From assembly GCA_017563185.1 (NCBI GenBank), contig JAFXIL010000039.1:1-49672 (forward strand): 49,672 bases of DNA, in the 5' to 3' direction. The notes below the pieces were generated by a model. It worked only from the letters and a program-made list of their open reading frames with translations, was not told where the DNA came from and ran no database searches. Origin of the DNA: Kiritimatiellia bacterium. Its GTDB lineage: Bacteria; Verrucomicrobiota; Kiritimatiellia; RFP12; UBA1067. Shown here piece after piece: positions 126 to 19,760 of the stretch; the stretch's first letter is position 1, and each line of letters begins with the position of its first letter. A program made the translations under genes and the position numbers.

Positions 126-3100
126 ATGAATTTCGTGAAAAAGACAGTACTCGGCTTCCTTGTTGCGCTGCTCTGCGGCGCGGCGTGGTGCGGCGTAGCC
201 GCGAACGGCCATGCGGGCGCAAGGCGCGTGAACCATCTCACGCGCGTAAGCAGCCACGGCCGCATCGCCGTGAAGGCTGAGGGCAACCGGTTCTCCGAGA
301 GCGCAAAGGTCTCCTTTTCGCGCACACGCGCGGACGGAGTGAAGCGCAGGATCATGGAAGGCCTTGCGAAGAAGCGCCGTGGCGGTCCGCGCCTTCTCGG
401 TGCGGCGAAGGAGCCTTCCTCTCGCAAGGAGCCGTCCGTTCTCGCGATGTACGACATCTCGATCGAGTCGGACGGCGCCAAGTGGCAGCCCGCAGCTGGC
501 GAACCCGTCCAGGTTGACGTGACCCTCGACGAGCCGGTGGCCATAACGCCCGGCGCGACGCTTGGCGTTGCTCACCTTGCGGACGACGGCACGGTGGAGG
601 CGCTACCCGCATCGCGCTACAGCTTCACCTACAACGCCGCGAAAACGGCGGTCACGGCCTTCTCCTTCTCCGCCGAGGGCTTCTCCGTCTATGCAATCAC
701 CGAGGGCGATGACCACACGGCCGACAGCGATCCCGCCCGCCGAATCTACCAGTTCTATACGCTTGACGAGTCGGATAGCTACGTTCCATTCTACTTCGTC
801 GCCGACGACAACACACGAACCTTCCGCCAGATCGTCAAGGACGGGCAGAGCCTCGCGCGTCCCGAGATGGTGTCGTCCAAGGGGCGCACCTTCATGGGTT
901 GGTATCTCTTTGACGGCACTGACTATGCGGCCGCCCCGTTCGACTTCTCGAAGCCCATCACGTTTGACGCGAACGAAACCGGCGAGCACGTGTACACTCT
1001 CCGCGCCCGCTTCGGCGATGTGGGCTATGTGATCTTCCATGACCAGTCCATGACCGTGGGCGCCGACAAGAAATGGCCCATCACCGTCGTCCGCCGCGCG
1101 CCGCTCACGAAGAACGGCGACGTGCTGGAGGCCACGGTAGAGATCGACGACGTGACGGTGACGTATGACGAAAGCGCCAATAACAACGCCGGGGAAGAGG
1201 AACAAGAGAACTCGGCGCCCAAGATGATCTTCCGTGGATGGTCGAGAACGCCAGTCGATCCCGGTGAACCGAAGGACATACATGGAGACGACGTGGTGCG
1301 CGTTGAATCTCCGCTCACATTCACCCGTGTGGAGGGCGACAAGGTCAGGCCGGTCGATCTCTATCCAATTTTTGTGCCGATCCACTGGCTGTCATACCAG
1401 TCCGCCAAGACCGGCGAGGGCGCTTCCTACTGCCCGCCCGAGTGCCTCTACGAGGACGAGGGCAAGGACGAGCTTCCCCAACCCAACCGCACCGGCTATA
1501 CCTTCGCCGGCTGGTACACGGAGGCAGATGGCGGCGTGAAGGTGGGCAATGCCGACGGCACGCTGAACACCTCGGCCGACCTCACCGGCTGGGGCGGATA
1601 CTTCGATGGCGGCAAGCTGAAGCTTCGTGCCGACGTGAAGCTGTACGGCCACTGGACGCCTACGTTGACGCGGTACTCCGTCGTCATCTGGCGGCAGAAG
1701 GCTACCGACGATCCTTATCTTCCGAATGCGGAGAAAAAGTATGACTTTGCCGAGAGCATTGAACGCACTGACCACTATGCCGAAGATGTTGTTGACGTTG
1801 AGTCAGATCCGTACAAGAACTACGCTGGGAGCGGGAATTATGTCGGTTTCCACTATAGCCACTGTGATGGGTCTGCAATCGTGAGAGGTGACGGCTCAAC
1901 CGTCCTTAACGTGTACTACGACCGCAACGTCCACACATACAGATTCTTCCCAACCACAACAGCAGGTACCCTCACTCCAACGTATAGCTACTCATACACG
2001 CCAGTTCCCTGCAGTTTCACTTACACAGAACACAATTGTAACGTCACGTACACGACATATGCGAGCACTTATACTTATGTTTCTTATAGCTATGTGTACA
2101 CCAAAACTGAAACGTCAAGAGTTCGGCGTAGTAACAGTTCAGCAAATGCGGATGATAATATGCTTAATAACCAAAAAACGATTGGCGGAATTGCAGTTAC
2201 TTATTCGGGTACTACTTATTACATAAAATATGACAACTCTTGGTATCGTCTTAATAATGATAGTGGTAGTGGCAGTGATTTGTATAACAATGCGAAGACG
2301 ATTACGGTCGGCAATAATAGATATTATACATACACTAAGGATACAGATGGGACTTTTACGATTGGGAATGAAGTTATCGATCAAACATATTTGAACACTT
2401 TGAACGGGACTAATAAGAAAACCGTATCTGGGTACAGCATCTCTTATTATAGTAGTTGGGGGTGGTATTCGACAACTTATTATTGTATTGAGATTGATGG
2501 CAGGTGGTATCAAATATCTTCAAACGATCAGGATGTTTATAATAATGCCACAGCCATTAATCGGACGCCGAATACGACAACTGGGTCGTTCACCCTTGGG
2601 GCTTCGTCGGATGCGACTACTGCATCCGCCCTTGAAGCAGGCAAAAAGAGTGTAGGCGACTATGAGGTGTCTACCTATAACAATACCTACTACATCAAGA
2701 TCAATGGTGCGTGGCGTCAGATTGCGACGAATGGAGAGACTGTTTACAACAATGCTACTTCCATTACCGTTACGCCGAACGCAAATGACAGCACACAGTC
2801 ATTTGCCCTTGGGGCGATTGCCGGTGCTGCCGATGCAGCCACGTTGGAGTCTTCTGCATGGAAGAAGACTATAGGTGGTAATGATGTTTCTTACATTGGA
2901 AGCGGAGCCAGCCGTACTTATTACGTGAAGTATGAGGGCACATGGTACCAGATTCCGTCCTCTTACGGAAGCATCGTGTATGATGATGCGACGGTCATTG
3001 CTATTACGTCGAATGCAGCCAATGCGTCCTTCAACCTTGTGGAGACTGCGGTTGCTTCAGACGTAGCCGCTTTGGATTCTGCCGATTGGGAAAAGACGGT

Positions 3101-6100
3101 TGGTGACTACGAGGTGTCGTGCATCGGAATCGGCACCAGCCGGACTTATTACGTGAAGTCGGCGGACACTTGGTACAAGATTCCTGCCGCGTACGGAAGC
3201 AGCGTGTATGACAATGCGACCGAGATTACAGTCGGAACGCCTTCGTCTCCAGTCAGTGGCACATTTACCGTCGGCACTACTGCCGTTGACAATTCGACAG
3301 ACATTGATACGCTTGAGTCCAACAAACGGACTGCGGGAACTTTCGATGTTTCCTACAATGGCTCGACATATTACATCAAGCTCGTAAAGGACGGCAAGTG
3401 GTATCAGATCACAGGTAACAATGGCAGTGTCGTCTACAACAATGCCACAGACATTACCGTAGCTATGACTTCGACTCAGCAGGGGTACTTTGACATCACG
3501 GCTTTGTACGGGGCTAACATCAGCAGCTACTTCTCCATGTATATCAGCGATGACGCATTTGCAAGCAGCGGAACATTGTATTCTTTTGATGTCTCCAGCC
3601 CTAATTCTGCTCCTTATACTGAGCGACTGGTTGCTCTCGAAACCATGGATGATTATGATATTGTATTCAAGCGTAACACCTACAACTATACTGGCGGCAC
3701 AATCAACTACTATGTAGAGGTGGACAGAGAGGAATATGACGAGACTGAGTCCGAGAAAAGGTCGACTTTCAACGGCAAATACTATGTGCTCTACAAGAGC
3801 ATTGCGCATAACTTTAATCATTTGACTTATGAGGAGGACTATCATCCTCTCACTGGATATTCAAGAGATAAGTCGCATGCATCTCCCAACACTTTTGGTG
3901 CAAATAACCAGGCGAGTATCCCGAACAGTGGTGTCAACAACCTCTATTACGATCGAGAGTCGAAGGAAATCGAATTCGTAGATTCCTATGGTAATCTAAC
4001 GCTTGATTCGATGTCTATGTTGTACACGCAGAAGCTCGCCCCGAAGGTCGATGAACTCTTCCCGAATGGCCCCACGTCTAGACGTGAAGGTTATACGTTC
4101 ACCGGCTGGTATGCGGATAGTTCCTGCACTACCCGCGTGTTCTTCGAGGAGGATGAAGAGTACAACAACTACACAAAAAACAAGGTGCTCTTTGACAGAG
4201 TACCGGCTTACAATCTCCAGATTTTCGCCGGATGGGAGACGGAGTGGTATCTGATCCAGATTGATCCGAACGGCGGACAGCTGTCGGAGACCGACTCCAC
4301 ATGGTTCTGGGAGCCGTACGGCGGCGAGAACGTCTATGAATACAACACCGCTTCGCGCAGCTTCATACCGTCGGCGAGCGGCGAGTGGTTCTACGTGGTC
4401 AAGAACCGCGACTACTACAAGAGCGCGCTTGCCGGCGAATACGGCGACCAGGGCGACTTCGACAAATTCGTGGCCGATACCTGGAGCGACTTCGAGGATG
4501 ACAATGGAAAGACCATTCTCGGCGACCGCCGCGCGTACTACACGAAGGACGTGAACGATCCAGGCATCACGGACTTCACCCGATACGAGAACCGTGTCAA
4601 TGCATACCGCTACTCCGGGTGGTACGAAGTGCTGATGGACGATAACGGCAACGAGATCGGCGAGGCGCTGTACAAGTTCGGGCAGAAGGTCACGCACGAC
4701 ACCACTCTGCGCCTGCATTGGAAGAGCCTTGGAACGTACGAGCTGCACTACGTCGCCGGCGATGGCACGATAGACCGCCTGGACGACAACGAGGAACACA
4801 CCTTCCAGGAGGCTCTCGACGTCGCGGTGTTCAACGACCATTCCGACCTCGTCGTCACCCGCACCGCCACTGCACCAGAGGGCAAGTATTTCGTGGGCTG
4901 GACCGTCCGCAACGGCGATGGCACCGTTTACTTCCCCGGTCAATCCTTCGTGCTGGATGCAATCTACAGCGAGGCCGACTCGGCCTCCAACGTCCGAGTG
5001 GTCTATCTGGACGCCGTCTATGAAACCATCAGGACCGTGAGCCTCACGCTGGACGTCAACGGCAGCTCGCTCGCGAACGCGTCCATAGGCGACGACGCCA
5101 CCTCTCTCACGCTCGCCCATCCGGATCCGGCCGACAAATTCACCTCGGGCACCTCCGACACCACCCGCACGGTCTCGGGCCTCCCGAACAACGCCTACGG
5201 CCACCTGAGCGACGGCACGGGGTACACCTGCACCATCGGCGACGAGACGCTCACGTTCCTCGGATGGAACACGCGCAAGGACGGCACGGGCACGCACTTC
5301 GCGCCCGGCGCGTACGTGGGCATCGACGCGCTCGACACGCTGGACGGCAGCGGCGCCAACACGCTCTACGCCGAATGGGCCGTGAACGTGTACTTCGACA
5401 AGAACAACACCCAGTACACGTGGGAGCCGGGCTCTGCCGACGCCTGGAACGCGAATGAGTTCACGTACATCGCCGAAGGCGCCAACGCAGAGCGCTACAG
5501 CCAGCAGACGACGCTCAACGGCCACGTCCGCAACCCCGGCGTGCTGCACGACATCGTGGACGAGGAGACCGGCAAGCCGATGATGTTCGACTTCTGGAGC
5601 ACGAAGCGCTATCAGGAGACCGCGGACCTCGAGGCGTACAACTTCGAGGAGACCCCCGTTGAGGGGCCGCTCGTGCTGTACGCCGCATGGCGCGACCTCA
5701 TCGAGGTGCCGCTGCGCGTGGTGGACGCCTCGGCGGAGGAGATCGTGGAGCACAGCGAGCTCATCGACAACGGGGGCTGGCTAACGCAGCTGTCGATCCA
5801 GGTGGGCAACACCACCGATGTCTCGTTTAACGATTCTCCCACGCAGTACGTGCAGCTGCCCAGCGAGGGCAACTACCAGTACGCCTTTGCGTGCGTCGCA
5901 ACGTCCAAGGACGACATCTCCGAAGGGCGCAAAATCAGCCGCGTCTACTACAACACCTCAGCGCGCAGCGTCTATGTGGAATACGCCGACAGAACCAGCG
6001 AGGCGCTTCCGAGCGAGATGAAGGTGTTCATGGTGTACTTCAAGAACCCGAGGCTCATCAACATCGGCTATCGCGAGATGGGCCTGGACGGGTTCACGAC

Positions 6101-9100
6101 GGTGACGGCCAAGACCACCGCGCCCACGGAGACGAGCGTGGGAGCGGAGGCCCTGAACGTGGCGGAAAGCCTGCTGGCGACGCCGCTCCAGTATCCCGAG
6201 AGCGGATCGTACCAGCACTACGCCTACGCGCTCGGCGACCCCGACGCGACTGCGGCCGCGCAGCTGCACTACATCACCGAGACGAAGACGAGCGACGGGT
6301 CGCGTCCCGCGCTCCAGATCAGGAACACATGGCGCGGGTTCGAGTACTCCTCTGACGGTGGTACGACGTGGACCCGCTACGGGTTCGACATGCAGCTCTA
6401 CGTGGTGTACTTCACCGCCCAGCCCACGATCATCACCCTCCGCGAGGAGACCATCGGCACCGCGGAAGACATCAGTGCCGAGTTCACGTACGACGTCGTC
6501 ATCTCGGGCGGTGGGTCGTCCGAGTCCTCGACCGTCACGCTGAGGAATGGCGAGGCGGAGTCGCTCACGCTGTTCGCGAGCTCGTCCGTGCAGCAGACCA
6601 TCTCCATAACGCAGAGGCCGAAGGATGGCTTCACGACGACGATCGGAATAACTGAGGACGACGCCGGCGTGAACGGCACGGCCAACGACTTCGTGTACAC
6701 CGCGACGGCCGCCACGAGCGGCGGCGCGGAGACGGTGACCTACACCAACAGCCGCGGACTGCTGCCGCTTGAGCTGAACGTGGCGTTCGGCAGCGGCGGA
6801 GAGGTGACGAACGTCAACGGCGAGTACCGCACCGACGCCGAGAGCGGGTACACGCTGAACGTGCCGATCCAGGCGGGCGATCCCGCGCCCACGCCTTTCT
6901 CCGTGACGGAGCAGGCGCTGACGGGCCGCAACAAGGTCTATGCCGAGGGCACTGCGGCGGATGGGCTTCTCTCCAAGGAGGTCGGCGCCACGCACGTGTT
7001 CGTGGGCGTGTGGTACGGTCGCCCGGCGCAGGCCGATGGCGAGGCCGAGGAGGGCGACAAGGTCGAGCTCAAGGGGCGCGTCACGTCCGTCGGCTTCGTG
7101 AAGCTTGCGCGCGAGGACTACTACGGAATCTGCCTGAACGACGATCCAGAACTTCCGCTTGGAAGCTACAAGCTGTACTACGTGTACAGCGAGATGCCGA
7201 GAATCCACTACGTGAAGGAGGGGGCGAACGGCACGCTCGTGAAGCTTGAGACGTTGGCGTATCAGGGCGTGGCGTATGAGAACGTGATGCCGCAGGATTC
7301 GATGATGTCCGTCGGTGAGGCGGAAGCCCTGTCCGTGCAGTTCGGCGGAAACGGCGTGAGCTCCGAAGTCGTCCACGTGCCGTTCATCCTCGACGGCTCC
7401 CATCCGGGATCGCTGGATGCGTTGACCATCGCGGCAGGTCCGGAGAAGGATGGCTCAGTCAAGGAGAGCGACTTGGACGGCCAGACGGTCATGACCTCCG
7501 ATCCCCTGAAGCTTCAGATCAGGGACGGTCTGGTGAAGTGGAGCCTGAACGGCGAGACGTGGCATGACTTCTCCGGCTCTCCCGCCGTGTACGTAATCTA
7601 CCGCGAAGTGGGCTACAACCTCACGGTGAAGATGACGGCCATCGCGAACGAGACCGACAAGGCGCAGGCGTTCACCGTGTCCATCACCTCCCCGGCGCTC
7701 GCCGACGGCGTCTCCTACGAGATCGACAAATACAGCGTGGACAGCGTCACGCCGACGGTTGGCTCGGGAACGGGCACGATCACGCTTTCGCTCAAGGACG
7801 GCGACGAGGTGACAATCCGCGCGCTGCAGAGCGGAAGCTACTCCATCGTCGAGACGCTGGTGGACCGCTTCACGCTGACGCACGTCGAGGAGGGCGGGAA
7901 CTACATCGACGATTCGCAGCTGATCAAGAACGCCGACGATGCGCTGATCGGCGTCAACGTGGTCATGGAGAAGAACCGGTCCGCTGAACTCGTGAACGAG
8001 AAGAAGTACAGGGTCAAGTTCGTGGACGAGGACAACATGACGGTGCTTAAGGATGAAGTGACCTACGCGTTCCAGACCACGGCGGACGAGGTCGCAAAGC
8101 CGGAAGACGATCCCACGAAGCCGATGAACGACGAATACACCCTCCTCTACCGCTTCGAGGGCTGGTCGGAGGACGGCAAGACGGTCACGGACGTGGCTGA
8201 CGTCACCAAGGACGTCGTCTACAGGGCGAAGTACCGCGAGATCGAGGTTCCGAAGCTCAGGCAGCGCGCCGTCGCGCTCGACCTCGTGATCAGGCTTGCC
8301 GAGCCTGAAGAGACCGACGCGGCCGAGAGGAAGCGCAAGTACGAGGCCAAGCTCATCGACGCGCTTGCCGCGGCGGGCGTCACGCTGAAGGACACTGGGT
8401 TCTTCCACGAGAGCGACACGGCGTACGACTACCTCAATGAGATGCAGCCGAACGGACTGCGCCTCTGGGAATGCCTGCGTACCGGCACGCCGGTAGAACA
8501 GAAGCTCCTCGACACGGCTCTCGGCGAAGGCGCGAACCAGTTGTCGCTTACAATGGCGGCCGCTCCTGTTGGCATCAAGGACCTTGGCTATGATGTGTAT
8601 CATGTGCTGCGCAAGTACAAAGAAAACGGCGAAAGCGTAACCTGGGATGACGTCAGCGCTCGTGTGGAGGGCGAATATCCCAACTTCGAAAAGCCCGCGT
8701 TTGCAATAGACCTTCTTGATGAAGAAGGAAAGTCCAAGAACGCATCGGGCTTCTACCGCGTCGTCACTCAGATCGTGCCGAAGTACAACACGGAAGAAAT
8801 CATCAACGAAATACCGTCTCCAAACATCATCGCCGTACTGGAGGTGAACAGCGGGCTCAAGAAGACCATGACGGCCATTCCGTGGGTTGCGCTTCCGAGC
8901 GATCCCGACGCGGCGGAGCTGCCGTCCATCACCGTCAACAACTACGTCCAGACCGGCCAGCTCAGCGCGAGCGACGCGGTCTACTCCATCGACGCCAATG
9001 GCATCTACGAGAAGTGGATTTTGGGTGGCGGCGACGGCCAGCAGGGCGCGCTCACATGGACGTCTGCTACGACGGTCGCGAATGGCTCAAGCGGAGAGAC

Positions 9101-9590
9101 GGTGGTGCAGGATGCGCCCGATCCGGCCACGCACGGTCTCAGCCGCGGCGCCGCCACGTGGGTGGAGCGCGTAAGCGAGGGCAAGCCGTACTTCCTCGTC
9201 GGGCAGTATGCGCCCGGAAACATCACCGTGAACATCGCCGGAGGGTCCGACACGGTTCCGGCCAGCACGATAATCGCGAACCCGAGCATCAATGCGCTCC
9301 CCGTCAACTCGATCGCCTGGGGCGACAACCCCACCACCAAGGACACGATCGAGGTGTACAACGACAAGAACATCTGCTACAACCTGCAGTGGAACAAGAA
9401 GAAGAAGGAGTGGGGCCGCTCCGCAAAGGTGTGGGACGAAACCTTCCAGGCATACCGCAGCCAGTGGCAGAACGACTTCACCATCCCTGCCGGCACCGGC
9501 GTGAGGTACAAGCGCTGCGGAGGTGCGTTCACCGTAACGGTCAGCGCCGACCAGGTCAAAGAAACCGTCCAGTCGGGCACGGGCGAGTAA
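126..9590 (+). CDS. Giant secreted InlB-type (Listeria-Bacteroides) repeat surface protein
   Basis: This 3154-residue protein starts with a signal peptide (MNFVKKTVLGFLVALLCGAA). InlB B-repeat-like units marked by GWY/GW...W motifs recur around residues 257, 459, 1324, 1495, 1587, 1709, 1821 and 2677. Between residues about 684 and 1129 lie six tandem units of about 75 residues rich in Tyr, Asn, Ser and Thr, in a stretch visibly lower in GC than either flank. No LPXTG, PEP-CTERM or autotransporter barrel is visible; the C-terminus is a beta-type domain ending SGTGE. InlB repeats are common in bacterial adhesins, so a surface adhesin or structural role is likely but unproven. The start is supported by the strong Shine-Dalgarno. 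It is followed 30 nt later by a PEP-CTERM protein gene that may be co-transcribed. Confidence 0.85.
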   Translation: MNFVKKTVLGFLVALLCGAAWCGVAANGHAGARRVNHLTRVSSHGRIAVKAEGNRFSESAKVSFSRTRADGVKRRIMEGLAKKRRGGPRLLGAAKEPSSRKEPSVLAMYDISIESDGAKWQPAAGEPVQVDVTLDEPVAITPGATLGVAHLADDGTVEALPASRYSFTYNAAKTAVTAFSFSAEGFSVYAITEGDDHTADSDPARRIYQFYTLDESDSYVPFYFVADDNTRTFRQIVKDGQSLARPEMVSSKGRTFMGWYLFDGTDYAAAPFDFSKPITFDANETGEHVYTLRARFGDVGYVIFHDQSMTVGADKKWPITVVRRAPLTKNGDVLEATVEIDDVTVTYDESANNNAGEEEQENSAPKMIFRGWSRTPVDPGEPKDIHGDDVVRVESPLTFTRVEGDKVRPVDLYPIFVPIHWLSYQSAKTGEGASYCPPECLYEDEGKDELPQPNRTGYTFAGWYTEADGGVKVGNADGTLNTSADLTGWGGYFDGGKLKLRADVKLYGHWTPTLTRYSVVIWRQKATDDPYLPNAEKKYDFAESIERTDHYAEDVVDVESDPYKNYAGSGNYVGFHYSHCDGSAIVRGDGSTVLNVYYDRNVHTYRFFPTTTAGTLTPTYSYSYTPVPCSFTYTEHNCNVTYTTYASTYTYVSYSYVYTKTETSRVRRSNSSANADDNMLNNQKTIGGIAVTYSGTTYYIKYDNSWYRLNNDSGSGSDLYNNAKTITVGNNRYYTYTKDTDGTFTIGNEVIDQTYLNTLNGTNKKTVSGYSISYYSSWGWYSTTYYCIEIDGRWYQISSNDQDVYNNATAINRTPNTTTGSFTLGASSDATTASALEAGKKSVGDYEVSTYNNTYYIKINGAWRQIATNGETVYNNATSITVTPNANDSTQSFALGAIAGAADAATLESSAWKKTIGGNDVSYIGSGASRTYYVKYEGTWYQIPSSYGSIVYDDATVIAITSNAANASFNLVETAVASDVAALDSADWEKTVGDYEVSCIGIGTSRTYYVKSADTWYKIPAAYGSSVYDNATEITVGTPSSPVSGTFTVGTTAVDNSTDIDTLESNKRTAGTFDVSYNGSTYYIKLVKDGKWYQITGNNGSVVYNNATDITVAMTSTQQGYFDITALYGANISSYFSMYISDDAFASSGTLYSFDVSSPNSAPYTERLVALETMDDYDIVFKRNTYNYTGGTINYYVEVDREEYDETESEKRSTFNGKYYVLYKSIAHNFNHLTYEEDYHPLTGYSRDKSHASPNTFGANNQASIPNSGVNNLYYDRESKEIEFVDSYGNLTLDSMSMLYTQKLAPKVDELFPNGPTSRREGYTFTGWYADSSCTTRVFFEEDEEYNNYTKNKVLFDRVPAYNLQIFAGWETEWYLIQIDPNGGQLSETDSTWFWEPYGGENVYEYNTASRSFIPSASGEWFYVVKNRDYYKSALAGEYGDQGDFDKFVADTWSDFEDDNGKTILGDRRAYYTKDVNDPGITDFTRYENRVNAYRYSGWYEVLMDDNGNEIGEALYKFGQKVTHDTTLRLHWKSLGTYELHYVAGDGTIDRLDDNEEHTFQEALDVAVFNDHSDLVVTRTATAPEGKYFVGWTVRNGDGTVYFPGQSFVLDAIYSEADSASNVRVVYLDAVYETIRTVSLTLDVNGSSLANASIGDDATSLTLAHPDPADKFTSGTSDTTRTVSGLPNNAYGHLSDGTGYTCTIGDETLTFLGWNTRKDGTGTHFAPGAYVGIDALDTLDGSGANTLYAEWAVNVYFDKNNTQYTWEPGSADAWNANEFTYIAEGANAERYSQQTTLNGHVRNPGVLHDIVDEETGKPMMFDFWSTKRYQETADLEAYNFEETPVEGPLVLYAAWRDLIEVPLRVVDASAEEIVEHSELIDNGGWLTQLSIQVGNTTDVSFNDSPTQYVQLPSEGNYQYAFACVATSKDDISEGRKISRVYYNTSARSVYVEYADRTSEALPSEMKVFMVYFKNPRLINIGYREMGLDGFTTVTAKTTAPTETSVGAEALNVAESLLATPLQYPESGSYQHYAYALGDPDATAAAQLHYITETKTSDGSRPALQIRNTWRGFEYSSDGGTTWTRYGFDMQLYVVYFTAQPTIITLREETIGTAEDISAEFTYDVVISGGGSSESSTVTLRNGEAESLTLFASSSVQQTISITQRPKDGFTTTIGITEDDAGVNGTANDFVYTATAATSGGAETVTYTNSRGLLPLELNVAFGSGGEVTNVNGEYRTDAESGYTLNVPIQAGDPAPTPFSVTEQALTGRNKVYAEGTAADGLLSKEVGATHVFVGVWYGRPAQADGEAEEGDKVELKGRVTSVGFVKLAREDYYGICLNDDPELPLGSYKLYYVYSEMPRIHYVKEGANGTLVKLETLAYQGVAYENVMPQDSMMSVGEAEALSVQFGGNGVSSEVVHVPFILDGSHPGSLDALTIAAGPEKDGSVKESDLDGQTVMTSDPLKLQIRDGLVKWSLNGETWHDFSGSPAVYVIYREVGYNLTVKMTAIANETDKAQAFTVSITSPALADGVSYEIDKYSVDSVTPTVGSGTGTITLSLKDGDEVTIRALQSGSYSIVETLVDRFTLTHVEEGGNYIDDSQLIKNADDALIGVNVVMEKNRSAELVNEKKYRVKFVDEDNMTVLKDEVTYAFQTTADEVAKPEDDPTKPMNDEYTLLYRFEGWSEDGKTVTDVADVTKDVVYRAKYREIEVPKLRQRAVALDLVIRLAEPEETDAAERKRKYEAKLIDALAAAGVTLKDTGFFHESDTAYDYLNEMQPNGLRLWECLRTGTPVEQKLLDTALGEGANQLSLTMAAAPVGIKDLGYDVYHVLRKYKENGESVTWDDVSARVEGEYPNFEKPAFAIDLLDEEGKSKNASGFYRVVTQIVPKYNTEEIINEIPSPNIIAVLEVNSGLKKTMTAIPWVALPSDPDAAELPSITVNNYVQTGQLSASDAVYSIDANGIYEKWILGGGDGQQGALTWTSATTVANGSSGETVVQDAPDPATHGLSRGAATWVERVSEGKPYFLVGQYAPGNITVNIAGGSDTVPASTIIANPSINALPVNSIAWGDNPTTKDTIEVYNDKNICYNLQWNKKKKEWGRSAKVWDETFQAYRSQWQNDFTIPAGTGVRYKRCGGAFTVTVSADQVKETVQSGTGE
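2175..3510 (+). repeat. Six tandem ~75-residue coding repeats in a low-GC island
   Basis: Units begin at about 2175, 2415, 2643, 2862, 3090 and 3324. Each follows the pattern K-[KT]-x-G-x-[YDF]-x-V-S, then TYY[IV]K, then WY[QKR]I, then VY[ND][ND]AT, closing with a T/S-rich segment. The later units are closer to each other than to the first two. AT-rich codons dominate from about 1740 to 4200, unlike the GC-rich codons on both sides. Confidence 0.85.
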
Positions 9591-9620: not shown

Positions 9621-10205
9621 ATGAAGACAGTTCGCAAGACATTCCTTCTGCTTACGGCGTTCTCATTGTTCGCGAATGCATTTGCCACGGATCCCGAGAT
9701 CCTCTGGTGGCGTGTCCAGGACGAGGACGATCCGGAGTCTTTCGAGAACGTCAAGGTGACCGCGCTGGACGGCTCGCAGGTCAACGCCGTTGACCTTAAA
9801 TACCAGGGCAAGAGCGTGAACGCGGCGCGCCTTCACGTTGTGGGCGGAGGTGTTGACACCTACCTGCCGTTTGCGGATCCCGACGTGTCGGGGATGAGCC
9901 AGACCTTCGCCCCGCTGCCCGGTGACTTCTACAACGACCTCAGCGCCTATACGGGCGCGGCGTACTCGTTCGCGGTCGAGCTGGGCAACTGGCAAGACGA
10001 CAGCTGGACGATAATGGCGACTTCGGGGTATGTCACGTTTGACACGCTGAAGAACGACATGCACCATGTCCACAACTGGACGGACATCACCACGAACATC
10101 GCCATGCCCTGGCTGCCGTCCTTCACCGTGCCCGAGCCGTGCAGCGGCCTGCTGCTTCTGCTGGGCGGCGGCCTGCTCGCGCTGAGGCGCCGCAGGAGAG
10201 TGTGA
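9621..10205 (+). CDS. PEP-CTERM sorting-domain protein
   Basis: A 194-residue exported protein with an N-terminal signal peptide (MKTVRKTFLLLTAFSLFANAFA). Its C-terminal tail has VPEP, a hydrophobic Leu/Gly helix and an RRRRR end. This three-part tail is the recognition signature of exosortase systems, which cleave near the PEP motif and pass the protein to the cell surface or extracellular matrix. The middle (about residues 25-165) matches no family I recognise. It lies 30 nt after the giant InlB-repeat gene and could share its transcript. No exosortase gene lies in this window. The sorting call is strong; the specific role is unknown. Confidence 0.8.
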   Translation: MKTVRKTFLLLTAFSLFANAFATDPEILWWRVQDEDDPESFENVKVTALDGSQVNAVDLKYQGKSVNAARLHVVGGGVDTYLPFADPDVSGMSQTFAPLPGDFYNDLSAYTGAAYSFAVELGNWQDDSWTIMATSGYVTFDTLKNDMHHVHNWTDITTNIAMPWLPSFTVPEPCSGLLLLLGGGLLALRRRRRV

Positions 10206-11417: not shown

Positions 11418-12209
11418 ATGCCCGAGCTCTACGACACGCACGCCCACTTCGGCGCGGAGGATGACGTGGACGCCATCTTCAGACGCGCGGCCGAGGCGGG
11501 CGTTTCGCATATCCTGGCGATCGGAGGCGACGACGAGCTGAACCGCAACGCGCTGCGCGCGCCGGCACGCGTGGCCCTTGGCTTCGACCGCGACCAGACT
11601 TCTCTCGCCGCCGAGGCGTGCGCCGCGCTGTCCGGCCTCGTGGCGGCGAACCGCGCGCGCGTGGCGGCAATCGGCGAGATCGGCCTCGACGCGCACTACG
11701 CGCCCGAGACGCTTCCGGCGCAGTGCTCGCTCTTCGCGCAGCAGCTCGCGCTTGCCGACGAGCTGGCGCTCCCCGTGGTGGTGCACACGCGCGAGGCGGA
11801 CGACGCGACGCTGGGCGTGCTGGACGAAGTTCCCTGGCGCCACGGCGAGCGACTGCGCGGCGTGATACACTCCTACACCGGCTCCACCCGCTTCGCGGGC
11901 CGCCTGCTCGACCGCGGCTTCTGCGTGTCGTTCTCTGGCATCGTCACGTTCAAGCGCTCCGACGAAGTGCGTGCATCCGCGCGGTACGTTCCGGCCGACC
12001 GTCTGCTCGTGGAGACCGACTCGCCGTACCTCGCGCCCGAGCCGCTGCGCGGCCGCAGGTGCGAGCCGGCGTTCGTGGCGCACACCGCGCGCCGCGTCGC
12101 CGAGGAGCGCGGCGTTCCGTTCGAAGCGCTCGCCGCGCTCACCACTGCCAACGCGCTCGCCTTGTTCGGATTCTCACGGTGTTTGGATACGCAGGGTTCG
12201 CAGACATAA
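11418..12209 (+). CDS. tatD: TatD family metal-dependent deoxyribonuclease
   Basis: A 263-residue cytoplasmic TIM-barrel hydrolase. The TatD signatures occur in order: DTHAHF (His8, His10, metal ligands), GEIGLD (Glu87), VVVHTREA, a HSYTGS counterpart of the HCFTG motif, and ETDSPYLAPEPLRGRRCEP near the C-terminus. Length fits the family (about 260). TatD proteins are Mg-dependent 3'-5' exonucleases linked to DNA repair and turnover. The ATG at 11418 is 2 nt after the preceding stop, so translation is probably coupled. The stop codon overlaps the start of a hairpin that serves as terminator for the convergent gene. Confidence 0.9.
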   Translation: MPELYDTHAHFGAEDDVDAIFRRAAEAGVSHILAIGGDDELNRNALRAPARVALGFDRDQTSLAAEACAALSGLVAANRARVAAIGEIGLDAHYAPETLPAQCSLFAQQLALADELALPVVVHTREADDATLGVLDEVPWRHGERLRGVIHSYTGSTRFAGRLLDRGFCVSFSGIVTFKRSDEVRASARYVPADRLLVETDSPYLAPEPLRGRRCEPAFVAHTARRVAEERGVPFEALAALTTANALALFGFSRCLDTQGSQT

Positions 12210-12236
12210 AAAAGGCCGCAGCACTAGCCACGGCCT
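12207..12236 (-). terminator. Intrinsic terminator of the minus-strand lipoprotein gene
   Basis: On the minus strand AGGCCG pairs with CGGCCT around a 12-nt loop and is followed by six T residues. On the plus strand it directly overlaps the tatD stop codon, so the hairpin may also end that transcript, without a T-tract. Confidence 0.8.
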
Positions 12237-12268
12237 CTAGGTAGGGCATACGCCCAGATCTCAATCCG

Positions 12269-12721
12269 TCACTTGCACGCACATGGAGTCTTGTTCTCGA
12301 TCAGCTCTACGCCGGTGAGCGAGGCCGGATAACCCGTGATCTCGGCGTTGATTTTCTTGAACACAAAGTAGTCTTCGGTCGTGACCTTGTACCTCGCACC
12401 AACGACCTGGTCGCACTTCGCAGCGTCGCAGGCGTTCGCGTACGCACCATTCTTTGCCTTGGCGACGGCGTTCAGGAACGGCCCCTGGCCACATACAGCA
12501 TCGGAGATGTGCGTGGCAGAAGAGCCCCAGCAAATGAAGCCAAACAAGCAGTTGATCTTGTCTTGCGCCGAGATAGTCTTGTCACTTACTGCGAACTTCT
12601 CATGCACGATGTCCTTCGCGATGCAGGGCGTGCGGCACGCGTTACCGCCGTCGTTCTGACGCACAGAAACGCAGCCGCACGCGAGTGCCGCGATGGTTGC
12701 GCCGATAATGATTCTTTTCAT
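12269..12721 (-). CDS. Small Cys-rich probable lipoprotein
   Basis: A 150-residue protein beginning MKRIIIGATIAALACGC, a short signal sequence ending in a lipobox-like Cys. The mature part contains further Cys residues (ACRTPC, NCLFGFICW, AVCG, NACDAAKCD, PCACK), more than usual for the window. The start at 12721 is chosen because AAGGAAAG lies just upstream. I do not recognise the family; the AVAKAKNG...VVGARYKVTTEDYFVFKKI segment faintly recalls small TRL-like lipoproteins, but this is weak. It has its own candidate promoter at 12782-12810 and a terminator at 12207-12236, so it is monocistronic. Confidence 0.7.
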   Translation of the reverse strand: MKRIIIGATIAALACGCVSVRQNDGGNACRTPCIAKDIVHEKFAVSDKTISAQDKINCLFGFICWGSSATHISDAVCGQGPFLNAVAKAKNGAYANACDAAKCDQVVGARYKVTTEDYFVFKKINAEITGYPASLTGVELIENKTPCACK

Positions 12722-12781
12722 CTTTCTTTCCTTTCTTTCGGGTTGTTGTTCAGCAAGAGGCACACGACCTCCGTTAATTGT

Positions 12782-12810
12782 ATTGTATCAAAACAACGGT
12801 TTGAGTACAA
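12782..12810 (-). promoter_or_regulatory. Candidate promoter of the small lipoprotein gene
   Basis: Reading the minus strand: TTGTAC, 17-bp spacer, TACAAT, with the extended context TTTGATACAAT. Transcription would start about 55 nt before the ATG at 12721. The same TTTGATACAAT string appears in the divergent promoter at 12929-12957. Confidence 0.65.
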
Positions 12811-12853
12811 GTCCATGTTTGGACTTGGGACTTGGGAACTTGGGAGGTGGTTT

Positions 12854-12893
12854 GCGGAAGTGAACGCACCCGATTGGGTTCGTTTACTTCTGC
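12854..12893 (+). other. Long RNA-like hairpin in the divergent intergenic region
   Basis: Positions 12854-12871 pair with 12876-12893 around a GATT tetraloop: 18 pairs with one C/T mismatch and two G-U pairs. The G-U pairs exist only if the plus strand is transcribed. A T-rich tract (ATTTTTTTGATTTTTTT) begins 8 nt downstream. It is preceded by a small perfect hairpin (12811-12824) and an ACTTGGG triplicate (12821-12846). It may be the end of an unannotated small RNA or a barrier before the next promoter. No plus-strand promoter is obvious upstream. Confidence 0.5.
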
Positions 12894-12928
12894 AATGAAA
12901 ATTTTTTTGATTTTTTTCAGAAACCCTC

Positions 12929-12957
12929 TTGCGCAGGGCAAACGGATTTGATACAAT
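12929..12957 (+). promoter_or_regulatory. Candidate promoter of the secreted protein gene at 13124
   Basis: TTGCGC (12929-12934), 17-bp spacer, TACAAT (12952-12957). Transcription from about 12964 would give a 160-nt structured leader. Confidence 0.6.
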
Positions 12958-12961
12958 GTGT

Positions 12962-13123
12962 GTGCTTTCGAGCACTAAAGGCTTTTGGGCGGTCAGGCGG
13001 TGCCTAGGAACCCGGCTGGCGGTAACGCCGAAGAGACTACAGTGTGGTAAAGGCAAGGTTAACCGCTTCCGAAGGCGATGCCGGGTGGCAGAGCTGGAGG
13101 AGGTAAGAAAAGGAAAGAAACAA
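12962..13123 (+). promoter_or_regulatory. Structured 5' leader, possible cis-regulatory RNA
   Basis: The 160-nt untranslated leader holds several clean helices: GTGCT/AGCAC with a TTCG loop (12962-12975), AGGC/GCCT (12979-13005), and a long-range CCCGGC/GCCGGG stem (13011-13016 with 13080-13085) enclosing GGCG/CGCC with a GTAA loop (13018-13029), plus GGTTAACC and CTT/AAG elements. A GGAGGAGGT (13096-13104) lies 19 nt before the ATG, too far for a usual ribosome site, and AGGAAAG (13111-13117) is closer. The organisation resembles a riboswitch or protein-binding leader, but I cannot match it to a known class; it lacks the conserved boxes of c-di-GMP, TPP, cobalamin, SAM or FMN riboswitches. 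Confidence 0.5.
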
Positions 13124-13879
13124 ATGAAGAAGCTCATGATTGCGGCTCTCGCCGCTTGCTCGATCGGCGCCTATGCCGCTGACAACACCTGCGCTCCTGG
13201 CGAGGCGCCGGTTCCTACGCTCGTCTACAAGTTCAAGGCGACGGTCTACACCCCCAAGGGGATTACCCGTACCGAGGCCGCTGTTCCCGGTTCTGTCTGC
13301 CTTCCTGGCGACACGGGCACGGCTGGCGGCACGAACGTGATCCGCGCCAAGGACAAGACGAAGTTCGCCGGCTGGATTTATGACTGCAACGCCACCTGCG
13401 ACACGGTCGCGACCGGCTCCATCGTTGTCTGGGACAGCAAGCGCAAGGCTCAGCTGAACGAGGCGGCGATCGACAGCAAGTTCATCCACGTGATCGGCAA
13501 GAAGCAGAAGGATGCCGAGTGGCGTTGGGACCTCACGGGCGGCGCTGCCACCTACAACTACGGTGTTGCCACCTACACGCTGAACCTCGCCGGCTTCGGC
13601 AAGTACAGCGCCAAGAAGGGCTTCTACACGTCCTTCAAGGGCAACTTCGCCGGTGACGTTGATGCGGTGACCTATGTTCCGAAAGGCCGTCCTTCGTCTG
13701 CTGACGACTGCGTGCCCGCCGGATACTGGCTCTGCACCGACCTGACCACGCTCGATACCACAGATGCCGCCGTTGCGTATGGCTGCTGGTCTGTCAAGTA
13801 CAGCAAGTCCGCCTCCAAGAAGTTCAACAGGAACGGCTACCTCAAGGTTCCCAACTACGTGGTTGTTGCTGGTGAATAA
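13124..13879 (+). CDS. Secreted protein of unknown function with a structured leader
   Basis: A 251-residue protein with signal peptide MKKLMIAALAACSIGAYA. The mature part is small-residue- and Lys-rich, with paired Cys (CAPG, SVCLPG, YDCNATCD, DDCVPAGYWLC, YGCW) suggesting disulfides in an extracellular beta-rich fold. The frame stays open upstream, but the ATG at 13124 is chosen because it gives the signal peptide and the upstream part is the structured leader. A GW-containing segment (KTKFAGWIYDC) is loosely similar to the InlB-type motif but too little to call. No family recognised. It has its own promoter and is followed by two hairpins, so it is probably monocistronic. Confidence 0.75.
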   Translation: MKKLMIAALAACSIGAYAADNTCAPGEAPVPTLVYKFKATVYTPKGITRTEAAVPGSVCLPGDTGTAGGTNVIRAKDKTKFAGWIYDCNATCDTVATGSIVVWDSKRKAQLNEAAIDSKFIHVIGKKQKDAEWRWDLTGGAATYNYGVATYTLNLAGFGKYSAKKGFYTSFKGNFAGDVDAVTYVPKGRPSSADDCVPAGYWLCTDLTTLDTTDAAVAYGCWSVKYSKSASKKFNRNGYLKVPNYVVVAGE

Positions 13880-13887
13880 GCAAAGGT

Positions 13888-13945
13888 GCTGATTAAATCA
13901 GCGACAAGAGGGGGTGTCATGGCGCGAGCTGTGGCACCCCCTGTC
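13888..13945 (+). terminator. Two stacked hairpins between transcription units
   Basis: First, GCTGATT/AATCAGC is a near-perfect inverted repeat (13888-13902). Second, 13910-13923 pairs with 13928-13941 without mismatch (allowing G-U) around a GCGA (GNRA) tetraloop, extended by GACA (13903-13906) with TGTC (13942-13945). No T-tract follows, so it could be a terminator lacking one, an mRNA 3'-end stabiliser, or a leader structure of the next gene, whose ATG is 10 nt beyond. Confidence 0.5.
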
Positions 13946-13955
13946 GGGTTAAGAG

Positions 13956-15137
13956 ATGTCATATAGAAAAAACATAGCGGTTCTTCTGGCTGGTTGCTTG
14001 TTTCTGCTTGGGGGCTGCGGCAGAGACGAAGCGGCGAATGGCATTAAGAAAGATGTCGAGAACAATGTGGCGGCCGGCGTGAATCCCTGTCTCGGGAAGG
14101 ATTCCGATGTGCTTGTTGTGGTGAACGGACAGCCTGTGACAAGTGGAGATTTCAAGCGGCGTCTTGATCTTGAGCGGGCGATAGTGCGCTACAGGATCAG
14201 GCAGGTCGTCAAAAACCCTGATCGGAAAGATGCAGCGGCAGGGGTGGACAAATATGTTGACGACTACTCGAAAGACCGCATGCCGCGTATCATACCTGAG
14301 CTGGTGAACAACGTCCTTGTGGCGCAGGCCATGGTGAAATACGGCGTTGTCGTCTCCAACGAAGCGGAAAAGGCGGCGATAGAGCGTTCGAGCCTGTCGT
14401 TCGGCGTGAAGAAGGGCGGCGAGAGCGAGGTGGCGAAGAAGCTAGGGTACAAGGACGCTTCGTTCTTGAGGGAGCAGTTTCTGCTTCCCGGCAGGTACAA
14501 CGCCCTGCGCGAGAAGATGCAGCCCGAGAGCATGGTGGTGACGGAGAAGGAGATTGACGAGGGGCTGGAGCGTCAGAACAAGTACTACGAGCGTGCGATT
14601 GCCTCGAACACCGTCACCTATGCAACCTGCTCCAATGTTTTGGCGCAAATCAAGGCAGGCAAGATCGATTTTGCCGAAGCGGCGCGGAAATATGCGCAGG
14701 TCAATCCCGAAGCGGCTGTAGATGGGGAGGATTTTGACAATGACGATTTCGAGCCGGAGGACGACGAATACAAGAAGCCGCTCGCCGATTTGAAGAAATG
14801 GGCGTACAAGGCGGAGATAGGCGATGTCTCCGGTCCATGGGAAATGGAGGACGGCCTTTCCATCGTGAAGCTGCTCGCCCGCACGGGGCGCGGTGCGAGC
14901 GCCGAAGAGGAGTCGGACGAACCGGACGAAGTGAAGCTCGCGCGGATAACTTTCGTGATGCTGGAACCTGAACCCGAGCCGCGCACCCGCGAATTCGTGA
15001 AGGAAAGCCTGCTGAAGTGGAAGGCCGGCAAGGCGCAGGAGGCGATGTTCAAGAAACTTCATGCGGAGATGAAGCTTGAATATCCTCTCGGCACGAACTT
15101 CAGCTTTTCAGTTTCAAGCGTAAAGGAAAGGAAATGA
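13956..15137 (+). CDS. SurA/PrsA-like peptidyl-prolyl isomerase lipoprotein
   Basis: A 393-residue lipoprotein: signal sequence with lipobox LLGGC. A SurA_N-like region follows (VLVVVNGQPVTSGDFKRRL, then helices with an open-ended LVAQAMVKYGVVVSNEEAEK-type pattern). A parvulin-like (PpiC) segment occurs near residues 210-310 (FAEAARKY, AEIGDVSGPWEMEDGLSIVKLLAR). The C-terminal helical arm ends in VKERK. SurA-type proteins escort unfolded envelope proteins and catalyse prolyl isomerisation; membrane anchoring here is inferred from the lipobox. Only one parvulin-like unit is visible and it is divergent, so enzymatic activity is uncertain. The stop is 1 nt before the next ATG, so it is translationally coupled to the giant thioredoxin-fold protein, a likely client or partner. 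The Shine-Dalgarno is weak. Confidence 0.75.
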   Translation: MSYRKNIAVLLAGCLFLLGGCGRDEAANGIKKDVENNVAAGVNPCLGKDSDVLVVVNGQPVTSGDFKRRLDLERAIVRYRIRQVVKNPDRKDAAAGVDKYVDDYSKDRMPRIIPELVNNVLVAQAMVKYGVVVSNEAEKAAIERSSLSFGVKKGGESEVAKKLGYKDASFLREQFLLPGRYNALREKMQPESMVVTEKEIDEGLERQNKYYERAIASNTVTYATCSNVLAQIKAGKIDFAEAARKYAQVNPEAAVDGEDFDNDDFEPEDDEYKKPLADLKKWAYKAEIGDVSGPWEMEDGLSIVKLLARTGRGASAEEESDEPDEVKLARITFVMLEPEPEPRTREFVKESLLKWKAGKAQEAMFKKLHAEMKLEYPLGTNFSFSVSSVKERK

Positions 15138-15138
15138 G

Positions 15139-18100
15139 ATGAACACGAGAAACATCAGAGGGTGGCGTTGCCTGCTGGCTTCGGCCATGTGCCTGTTGGC
15201 GGCCTTGGCCGCGAACGGCTTCAACAAGACGATGCACCCCTACGAACTTCCGGCGGGTAAATTAGGCGCGGGAATGGGGTGCACATACGCGACGGCCGGC
15301 ATGAAGCTCGAGCTTGGCAAGTGGTACACAAACTGGTCGGTGTGCAAGGACTACTGCGACAAGAACGGCATTCCGCTCGTCATGATCTGGAGCAACGCCA
15401 CGTGCATCCACTGCTGGTACTGCGACGTCTGCTTCATACAGGATTCGTTCAAGGAGTGGGCCGCCACGCACAACGCCGGCAAGGTGATCTACTGCTTCAT
15501 GGCCGGCGGCGACAAGCACGGCGCGCCCGACCAGATAGGCTCGGCCGCTTACAACTGGATGTACTACGGCGGCGGCAGAAAGCTCTCCGCGTATCCTTAC
15601 ATGCCCTCTGGTGGAAGAAGAACGGCGTGAACGTGCGCAAGACGGGCGACGAGCTCTGCAACAGCAAGAGCTTCACGGACGCGAGCATCCCCACGCGCAC
15701 GGCCAACATCATAGCGGAGATGGAGGCGGCGTTCGCGGGCTGGGCGCCGGTCGAATACGCTGGCGGCAAGATGGAGCTTGATGAGACGGAAGGAAACCGT
15801 CTCGAGGCCGATTCGGGCACGAAGGAGATCGAAATCGAGCTGGTGCGCGGCGAGGACGTGAAGGACATCGCCACGAACAATCTCGTCGCCGTTGTCGGCC
15901 CGGACGGCGCGACGAAAGACACCGTCAATGTCGCCTGGAAGAAGGGCGAGACGAAGAAGATGGTCAAGATCGACATCTCGAAGGCGGGGTTCACGGCCGA
16001 CGGGCAGCAGGCCTCGCTCGTGTTCAAGGACGCGGACGGCACGGCCCAGTCGACGAACCACGTGACGTTCGTGGAGGGCAATTCGGTTGACAATCCGCTT
16101 TGGATAGGCGAGCGCAGCGCTTCTGGGGCGGGCCTTCAGGATGCATCGTCCACTCCCGGTCTCGCGTTCGGCGAATGGACGATGGATCTCGACGTCGCAA
16201 AGCAGAGGGTTGCCGCTGCGGAAGGCGACGCATACACGCTCGTCGCGGTTGTCGGATCGCTCTGGTGCCACGACTGCGCCAACACCACGCGCAACTTCGT
16301 GGACGTAAAGGACGCCTCCGGGAACAACAGGCTGGCTGCGTGGGCCAAGGCCAACCAGGTGGCGCTCGTGACGGTGGACGTCCCCAACTTCTCCACGAAC
16401 TCTGTCGAATGCGCGTCCCCCACGCTTCTTTCGCGCAAGTCGTATTCCACGCAGCTCGCGTTCGAGCTGCCAGAATACGGGATGTACGACGTGTCGAAGG
16501 GCGGCGCGCCCGAATCGCTCACGCAGGCGACGGCCCGCAGCGGGCTTGGCTACCTCACGCGCAAGGGCGCAACGGACGACGAGGCGCTTGCGGTGCTCAC
16601 GCGCAACTACAACCTCGTTTCAAAGGACATTTCGGAAGGCGGCTTCCACAGCGGCCTTGATTCGCGCGCGTACCGCACCGGCGTGCCGATCTACGTGCTT
16701 CTCGACAAGCAGGGCAATGTGGCGGCGAGGATGACGCGCTTCGCCTCCGTGAGCCCGCTTGCCGCCGACAAGGCGCAGTGGGACAACATAATCAAGCGCT
16801 TCGACGAAATGCTCGCGATCGCCAAGGGCGGGGAGCACGCCGACGGCGGAGTTTGGCAGAACGACTGTCCGTCTGCTGACGTTGCAGGGTTCAAGGCAAA
16901 CGGCGGAAGTGCAGCCGGAGAGATCAGCCATGCGGACGCGCAGGACGTGTTCAAGCTTGAAGGCGTGGGCGGAAACGCCCTGCAGAAGATCACCGTGACC
17001 GGCGAGAGCGACGCCGAGGTCTCCGTGCAGTTCATGAAGCTGAACGCCGAAGGCAAGGCCGAGAAGGTGGGCGAGGCCGCGAGCGGAAAGCTTTCGGCTG
17101 GTGTTGTGCTCGAGCAGACGTTCACCGAGGCCGGCGACTTCTTCGTGAAGGTGGCGGGCGACGTGGCCGGCAAGGACTTCGGCGCTACGAACGCCAAGGC
17201 CGGCAACTTCGTTCCCTACGCCCTCTCCGGCGCGGTGGTGCTGGTGCCGCAGGAGACGAAGGCCACCGGCACTGCGGCAGACACGTCCGACACTGTGACG
17301 ATGCGTCTCGTAAAGGACGGCGACTACAGGCTGCAGGGCGTCGACACCACGAAGATCGCCGGGCTGCTGAATCCCTATACGGAAGAGGCCAACTGCAAGT
17401 TCTTCACGGCGCTGGTGGACGGCGACGTGGAGATACCGCTCTTCTACGGCCAGGGCGGCGACATCACCTACCAGCTGTGGGTGCCGTGCACGGTGGGTTT
17501 CGCCGCCGGGGAGGCGAGCGTGGGCGAAGACGCGGGCGAAGTGAAGGTGGCTCTGGCGCGCAAGGACGGTAAGTCCGGCGAAGTGACGGTGCGCGTGACG
17601 CTTGACGACGAGAACACCACGCTCTACGAGTCCGACGAAGGAAAGAAGCCGCGCTTCGAGTTCGAGCCTGCCGAAATCACCTGGAAGGAGGGCGAAGACC
17701 ATGAGACGAACGTCGTCGTGAAGGTGCTCAAGGAGGGCAACCGCTACGACGGCGACGGAGTGGTGGCGCTGAAGGTGGAGCTTGTCTCGGACGAGAACCA
17801 CGATACGAAGCTCGCAACGACCAGCTTCACGCTCAAGGTGACGGAGAAAGACGAGGCGAAGCCCGGCGAGGTGGCATTCGCGGACGCCGAACCCTTCTTC
17901 TCCAAGGCGCAGACGGTGTTCGTGCGCGCGGGAGAGGGCGCGAAGATATACGCGAGCCGCCTGAACGCGAGCGACGGCGCGGTGACGGTGAAGGTCAACG
18001 CGACGTCCGGCGCCACGGTGGAGATAGACGGCGTGCAGACGAACGTCATATCCTGGGCGAACCACGATTCCGCCGACCGCGAAGTGACGGTGAAGGGGCT

Positions 18101-19760
18101 CTCCGCCGGGCGCTCGGCGACGCTGACTCTTGCTTCGCCCACGGGCGGACTCGTGCTTTCGAAGGCGCAGAGCAAGGTGACTGTGACTGCGGTGGCGGCG
18201 GACGGGCCTGAGTTCCAGAGCCCCGAGGCCTCCGAGATGCTCACGCAGTACGTGGCGTTCTCCAACGTGTACAGGCTCGCGAGCGCGCCAGCGGGGCGTG
18301 TGGCGTTCGCGAAGGTCTCCGGGACTCTGCCTTCCGGCCTGAGGGTGAGGTACAACGCGGCCGAGAACGCGATGGCGGTGTGGGGCGTGCCCACGAAGGC
18401 TGGAGAGTACACGGTGGTCTATCAGGCGAAGGACGGGAGCAAGGCCGGACTCGCGCAGAAGATCGACTTCAAGGTCGTCAGCCCCGTACAGGGCGACGGC
18501 GAGGCCGGCGTGGCGGCCAACGGATCCGTCGCCAAGGCTCGCTCGTTCACCGGCATTCCCGTGATCGATTCCGAAGGAAAGCGCCTTGCGGGACTTCTGA
18601 ACGTGACGATTCCCACGAAGGGCAGCGTCAGCGCCAAGTACAAGTGCGCGGCCGGGACGATCTCGTTCTCCGCGAAGAGCTGGGTGGACTTCGACGCCGC
18701 GACCGGCGCGCTCACGGCCGAGCCACTGACGCGCACGAAGGGCTACGCCATGACCGTGAGCGTGGCCGCGGACGGTTCGTTCGAGGCCACGCTGAAGGAT
18801 CCCGCCGGCGCTGCGCTTGCGGTGGCGCACGACGGCAACGTGTGGAGCAAGACGAATTCCGCCGAGGACTGGAAGGGCTACTACACCGTGTCGCTGCCGT
18901 TCGCGGGAGTGGTCTCCGAGGGCAGGGATGGGATTGCGCCGCGCGGCGCGGGCTACCTAACGCTCAAGATGAACACCAGGACCGCCTGGAACAAGGGCGA
19001 GGTTTCGTGGGCCGGAAAGCTTTCCAACGGCACGGCCGTATCCGGGAAGTCGCTTCTCGTGAAGGCCGAGGACGACTGCCAAGCGTATCTGCCGGTGTTC
19101 GCGAGGTCGTCGGTGGACGTGTTCTCCGCCTACGCGCGGATCAACGCGAAGGCCATGGAGAACAAGGACGAGGTCGGATGCCAGGCCGTGTTCGAGCATG
19201 AAGACGTCCATGCGGGCTGGACCCACACGGAAAGGTACGACGAGACCTCCTTCCAGGTCGATCTCGATGTGTTCGGCGGGCTCTACGACTCGTCCGAGGA
19301 CTTCGCCGCGACTTACGAGGTGTTCTACCCCGCCACATCTCCGGTCCTTGGGTTCGACCTCTCGGGACTTGGTGGCTGGGTGCTGGATAACGGCGTCGCC
19401 GGAGAGGTAGAGGACCTCTCGGCGGAGATCGGCACGAGCACGATAAAGATCGCCTCCGGCCAGACGAACGCGCAGAGGGCCACGCTCTCCTTCAACCGCT
19501 CCACCGGCATCGTGACTGGCTCGTTCAAGCTGCCCTACACCGATGCCAAGGGCGCGCAGAAGACCATTGCCGCAAAGTACGCGGGCGTGGTGCTGATAGG
19601 CTGGGGCGAAGGATGCGGATGCGGTCCCGAGCAGGTCGAAACGGTGCTGCCGTTCGTCAACGGCTCGTTCTTCTTCTCCGACAAGGTCAAGTCCGGCACG
19701 AGGAGCGTGACGGCCAAGCGCGGCGGATGGATGCTGGTGGGCGCCGGAGTGCAGGACTAG
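15139..19760 (+). CDS. Giant secreted protein with two thioredoxin-like domains, Calx-beta and Ig-like domains (frameshifted)
   Basis: Read as one gene of about 1540 residues. The first frame (15139-15606) gives a signal peptide and a thioredoxin-like domain with a CIHCWYCDVC motif (Cys89, 92, 95, 98). The frame then shifts by -1 at the CCC of ATGCCCTC near 15604-15606, giving PYMP-LWWKKNG and continuing to 19760. Next come a second thioredoxin-like domain with SLWCHDC (Cys377, Cys380), a PPC/beta region, a Calx-beta domain (about 790-910), an Ig-like He_PIG segment (about 1040-1115), and a C-terminal module (about 1137-1535) shared with the next gene. A single missing C explains the break, so sequencing error, real mutation or slippage are all possible. 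It is the second gene of a compact operon. The function is probably surface redox or adhesive. Confidence 0.75.
15601..15612 (+). other. Frameshift site within the thioredoxin-fold gene
   Basis: The upstream frame would run to a stop at 15628-15630 (…SGGRRTA). Adding one C to the CCC run restores M-P-L-W-W-K-K-N-G and joins the open frame that continues for 4.1 kb. The upstream frame ends the thioredoxin domain abruptly, and the downstream frame supplies its missing end. Confidence 0.8.

Follow-up and report, generated by a model that had tools for sequence, protein, structure and literature searches.

Long structured 5' leaders are known from the mRNAs of surface-layer proteins, where they precede the gene of an abundant exported protein, and covarying structured leaders with a fixed gene partner are found among the orphan cis-regulatory RNA motifs and candidate riboswitches of the type collected in Rfam. 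In Escherichia coli, 5' structure shields mRNAs such as those of ompA and papA (PMC3997798, PMC7509114). The leader described here, which lies in a window of 49,672 nucleotides (the whole stretch of Kiritimatiellia DNA that was analysed), resembles each of these in part. With the ompA and papA 5' untranslated regions it shares a base-paired 5' end (here predicted), a folded body, an unstructured ribosome site and an exported or surface protein as product. Unlike those stem-loops, it is much larger, contains conserved motifs and has modular 3' domains, and the likeness is one of principle and not of demonstrated sequence or structural homology. With the surface-layer leaders it has in common its length and a putatively abundant exported protein, but no homology was found and the nature of the partner does not imply a surface-layer identity. 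It differs from the Rfam-type motifs in lacking an Rfam match and a recognizable expression platform, and in that its partner is the gene of a rapidly diverging exported protein instead of a metabolic gene.

The sequence-only reading had proposed a novel structured leader between a good promoter and the ATG of a secreted protein gene. The features of the leader and of the genes behind it are collected in Table 1. The promoter was recovered (TTGCGC, 17 nt, TACAAT), followed by around 160 nt of leader and the ATG at 13124; a simple promoter scan listed none, because the -35 element is weak. Judged from the promoter position, transcription is predicted to start around 12964, and in most relatives the -10 element is followed after 6 nt by stem P1. 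Just upstream of the promoter, at 12852-12895, we observed a long near-perfect inverted repeat (TTGCGGAAGTGAACGCACCC / GGGTTCGTTTACTTCTGCAA) that is followed after a few bases by T-runs on the + strand. Its appearance is that of a terminator or a boundary element, and it drew chance microRNA matches in Rfam.

Table 1. Coordinates of the leader, its elements and the genes behind it
Feature	Positions	Strand	Basis
Promoter-like -35 TTGCGC (12929-12934) and -10 TACAAT (12952-12957), 17-nt spacer	12929-12957	+	sequence
Structured 5' leader, ~160 nt	12964-13123	+	homologues, covariation
Stem P1: UGCUUU 12963-12968/AAGGCA 13050-13055; GCACU 12972-12976/AGUGU 13041-13045; CUUUU 12982-12986/AAGAG 13031-13035	12963-13055	+	predicted fold, covariation
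Core, rod form: GGCGGUCAG/CUGGC...CGCC, with CCUAGG (13003-13008) in the apical part	12988-13029	+	window-type covariation
Core, alternative multi-hairpin form with P4 GGCG-GUAA-CGCC (13018-13029)	12988-13029	+	canonical relatives
Conserved linker AAGGTTAACC	13055-13064	+	alignment of relatives
Small hairpin P5: CGC 13064-13066/GCG 13075-13077	13064-13077	+	by-eye comparison; support weaker than for P6
Hairpin P6: UGCC-GGGU-GGCA, conserved GRGU loop	13079-13090	+	13 distinct stems
GGAGGAGGT, earlier proposed ribosome site	13096-13104	+	paired in predicted fold, not conserved, 19 nt from ATG
Likely ribosome site AAAGGAAA, open A-rich strip	13109-13116	+	recurs in most relatives, predicted unpaired
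Exported beta-rich protein, 251 aa, first gene after the leader	13124-13879	+	homologues in 63 of 115 family genomes
SurA/PrsA-like peptidyl-prolyl isomerase	13956-15137	+	Pfam Rotamase, E 1.2e-7; follows the secreted gene in relatives
Thioredoxin-like protein	15139-15630	+	named from sequence; syntenic in relatives

A BLAST search with positions 12940-13140 recovered leaders in genomes G011 (93% identity), G025 (77%) and G013 (66%), and a match of 84% identity over 91 nt in the 3' half of the leader of G026 (E 2e-20). Within the draft genome of the window itself (G000, in which the window is contig C182), copies elsewhere were short matches only, mostly to the ribosome-site region. When the upstream regions of protein homologues were collected, a recognizable version of the leader was present before most genes whose product starts with MKKLMIAA. 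The canonical core reads C-GGAC-nnnnn-GUCC-G, then GGCCUAGG-nnnnn-CCGGGC, then CAAYGAAAGUUG, and behind the core three kinds of 3' domain can be discerned: a short one, which the window has; a second with GUUAACCAC and GRGU hairpins; and a third with GCUGAAUGGCAUAACAUGUGUGUCGACC. The model built on the canonical core (R2) did not match the window, which represents another subtype (R1). The G026 leader scores 72 bits with R2, and the window subtype is tied to the canonical family by its DNA identity to G026, by the same gene partner and by shared motifs, namely the GRGU hairpin and the linker.

In five genomes (G027, G064, G137, G029 and G063; loci L051, L084, L082, L047 and L125) a different leader precedes a related gene, with repeated promoter-like modules (TTGACA... 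then TTTTTGGA...TCAGCGA...GTCGCT). Two copies of the leader core were found close together in G127 (L096), before divergent genes, and in G136 (L100), before two genes on opposite strands, which suggests a recent duplication of the leader-gene cassette.

A single-sequence fold of the window leader was only mildly better than those of shuffled sequences (z = -1.6), and the case therefore rests on comparison. Among the canonical leaders (34 distinct sequences), 10 of the 19 pairs had changed on both sides, against 5.5 in shuffles (0/500 as high), with 50 doubly changed cells against 17.5, in an alignment that was fitted to the model and thus leans towards its structure. The MAFFT alignment from which the model was built gave a weaker signal, with five both-side pairs, no more than in shuffles, and 29 doubly changed cells against 11.4 (0/500). 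For the window-type leaders, aligned from five members (G000, G011, G001, G016 and G013), 10 of 28 pairs had changed on both sides, where shuffles gave 4.7 and slid controls 2-4; related sequences are included in all of these counts. Hairpin P6 could be compared over 13 distinct stems, in which the first three pairs were intact in all and the fourth in 12, with up to five pair types, the choice of the loop by best stem introducing a small bias. Covariation in homologous leaders is thus present and far above controls, and on these sequence comparisons the leader is almost certainly a real structured-RNA family, a single element that is kept by compensatory base changes.

The window and 14 related loci had no match in Rfam 15 at the gathering threshold, and permissive E-values yielded only sub-threshold, unrelated matches for the window leader and two relatives. 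The earlier reading could not place the leader in a known riboswitch class, and neither scan returned anything credible. Of the two outcomes that would have refuted that reading, a match to a known RNA class and missing covariation among homologous leaders, neither was thus obtained, which supports the proposal that a new structured leader precedes the gene of a secreted protein. A literature search returned no paper joining Kiritimatiellae and riboswitch. Matches to R2 at E<1e-10 were restricted to one family (f1), in around 40 of the 162 draft genomes of the order and mostly one per genome. Among 388 genomes of the phylum, only weak matches were obtained outside this family (E >= 1.5e-5, the E-values being rough as they derive from a short calibration), and these were treated as chance. 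The exact core pattern occurred on 16 contigs among around 85,000 species genomes, with titles naming Kiritimatiellae, Verrucomicrobia, one Lentisphaerae or uncultured bacteria, and was absent from viral contigs. The named close relatives in this family are uncultured Kiritimatiellae or Verrucomicrobia genomes, several of which are labelled ruminant gut. As far as these sequence searches reach, the leader is confined to a single family of uncultured Kiritimatiellae, for the most part from the rumen, in about one copy per genome.

Several of the helices described earlier could be followed into the relatives. The 6-bp long-range stem (UGCUUU/AAGGCA) exists and is kept in relatives by compensatory change; the three helices of P1 were paired in 90-96% of the cells of the window-type alignment, with changes on both sides. 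The GTAA hairpin (GGCG-GTAA-CGCC, 13018-13029) has counterparts such as CAAC-GAAA-GUUG. The TTCG hairpin (GTGCT-TTCG-AGCAC, 12962-12975), on the other hand, is not kept in relatives, in which its strand forms the long-range stem instead. Nor is the multi-hairpin core the preferred fold of the window, since energy prediction places it around 8.5 kcal/mol behind a rod. The best fold is a rod in the window subtype and several hairpins in the canonical subtype, built largely from the same strands. Such competition between two core folds could point to a switch in the window.

The leader was also said to be positioned such that folding could control a ribosome site, GGAGGAGGT. This element, whose end lies 19 nt short of the ATG, shows no conservation and is probably not the ribosome site; judged from conservation and predicted folding, the conserved and exposed purine element AAAGGAAA is the likely one. 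Of 36 leaders, 34 were predicted to have a ribosome region that is more open than the body of the leader. No intrinsic terminator was found on the + strand within the leader, nor an anti-SD switch, and no metabolic gene is associated with it. Covariation of both canonical and window-type leaders points to a conserved, structured aptamer-like domain, but neither a terminator nor a sequestered ribosome site was recovered as expression platform, and with partner genes outside metabolism and transport the qualification 'riboswitch-like' is not supported. A tiny upstream open reading frame (AUG GCA UAA) noticed by eye in class III leaders was discarded, as its bases could equally pair into a hairpin and the stop codon is lost in some of the variants.

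A signal-peptide protein (MKKLMIAA...) was encoded downstream of all 29 strong leader matches that were inspected. In relatives the gene order is the same as in the window: the secreted protein, the isomerase, the thioredoxin-like protein and, in fourth place, a very large protein (at 15585). The 251-aa exported protein had no match in Pfam; its structure model was of low confidence, with weak matches to OmpA/Ail-like barrels, and was not used. Codon bias did not clearly mark the gene at 13124 as highly expressed. Elsewhere in the same genome (L054, contig C19, 20593-21234) a segment inside a 730-aa open frame is 75% identical to the secreted protein, which suggests domain duplication or shuffling. 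Further upstream in the window, positions 126-9590 encode a protein of 3154 aa that carries Listeria-Bacteroides repeats (Flg_new) together with a DUF7601 domain; the gene of a small PEP-CTERM-like protein comes next, at 9621.

The sister species G011 has a ribosomal protein L3 that is 99% identical to that of G000, an upstream backbone of 94% and a leader of 90-93% identity, but the secreted proteins are only 34-38%, the isomerases 26-28% and the thioredoxin-like proteins 35% identical. This indicates an operon that either diverges fast or is exchanged, behind a leader that stays constant in this pair. Aligned to the G011 locus (L187), the window differs strongly on both sides of the leader (12172-12890 and 13139-19760) and is near-identical elsewhere. 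In G013, with an L3 identity of 97%, the leader shares just 66% identity, which shows that a leader, too, can change along with its operon.

The explanation that we favour, to which we give about an even chance, is that the leader acts as a 5'-capping stabiliser of the mRNA, with an open ribosome site, for a fast-diverging exported-protein operon. The transcript would start at the first base of P1, so that its 5' end is base-paired; the leader body would be folded and the ribosome site would lie in the open A-rich strip before the ATG. The paired end would block 5'-end-dependent decay, and an abundant exported protein would be translated steadily and at a high level, as with a stabiliser of the ompA type and not with a switch. 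In 35 leaders the first six bases from the predicted start were paired at 0.76 on average, against 0.46 in shuffles (p = 3e-8), a score that is lowered by several leaders in which the automatic -10 call lies a few bases too far upstream. Both ompA-type hallmarks, a base-paired 5' terminus and an open ribosome site downstream, are hence predicted, and the covariation, the fixed partner, the restriction to one family, the lack of a terminator and the combination of an exported protein with folding helpers in the operon are consistent with this reading. What argues against a plain stabiliser is that the leader is more elaborate, and its motifs CCUAGG, GGUUAACC and GRGU more conserved, than would be needed; the rival core folds of the window, as a possible switch, likewise count against it.

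The same motifs, being single-stranded or in loops and exceeding the needs of stability, speak for a leader that is regulated through binding of a protein or small RNA, or as a thermosensor, for instance in feedback on the abundant exported protein. The interchangeable 3' domains behind one core and the strict limitation to one target operon agree with such regulation, but no candidate partner was identified and the ribosome site remains open in the predicted fold, and we consider this reading possible but rather unlikely. An unlikely extension would be a modular leader, with one core and three alternative 3' domains, that marks and regulates a single fast-diverging exported protein per genome via a partner (protein, RNA or ligand) recognizing these three motifs, with the operon behind it exchanged between lineages. 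A riboswitch of a new class, sensing a metabolite or ion, would account for the compact, highly conserved core with its junction-like hairpins, for the alternative core folds of the window subtype and for the lack of an Rfam match; considering the exposed ribosome site, the missing terminator and the fact that its targets form a single gene family, not a metabolic one, within one family of bacteria, it is distinctly doubtful.

Conservation could also act mainly on the DNA, the leader being the homology border where a hypervariable operon has its alleles swapped. The window and G011 indeed share a 90% island with non-matching DNA on both sides and matching backbone farther upstream, and the operon alleles do not track ribosomal-protein relatedness: the large protein at 15585 is 52% identical in G026 and 31% in G013, at L3 identities of 75% and 97%, respectively. 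As it leaves the compensatory base changes unexplained, we regard this as very unlikely to be the main cause, but it may hold alongside an RNA role. Finally, the modest fold z-score, and an open frame that (in the window only) runs through the leader from a TTG at 12929 in phase with the gene, might point to chance folding of GC-rich intergenic sequence or to a misread coding stretch. This has a negligible probability, being contradicted by the covariation, by homologues in dozens of genomes and by leader lengths and indels that vary freely among relatives and not in multiples of three.

With this leader, an uncultured gut lineage whose molecular biology is almost unknown gains a structured RNA family that Rfam does not contain, and the core motif, model seeds and coordinates provide a precise handle for its annotation. 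The leader also flags an operon in which species that are near-identical elsewhere differ strongly. Since the conserved leader lies beside highly divergent genes, the expression and the change of a major exported protein become directly testable.
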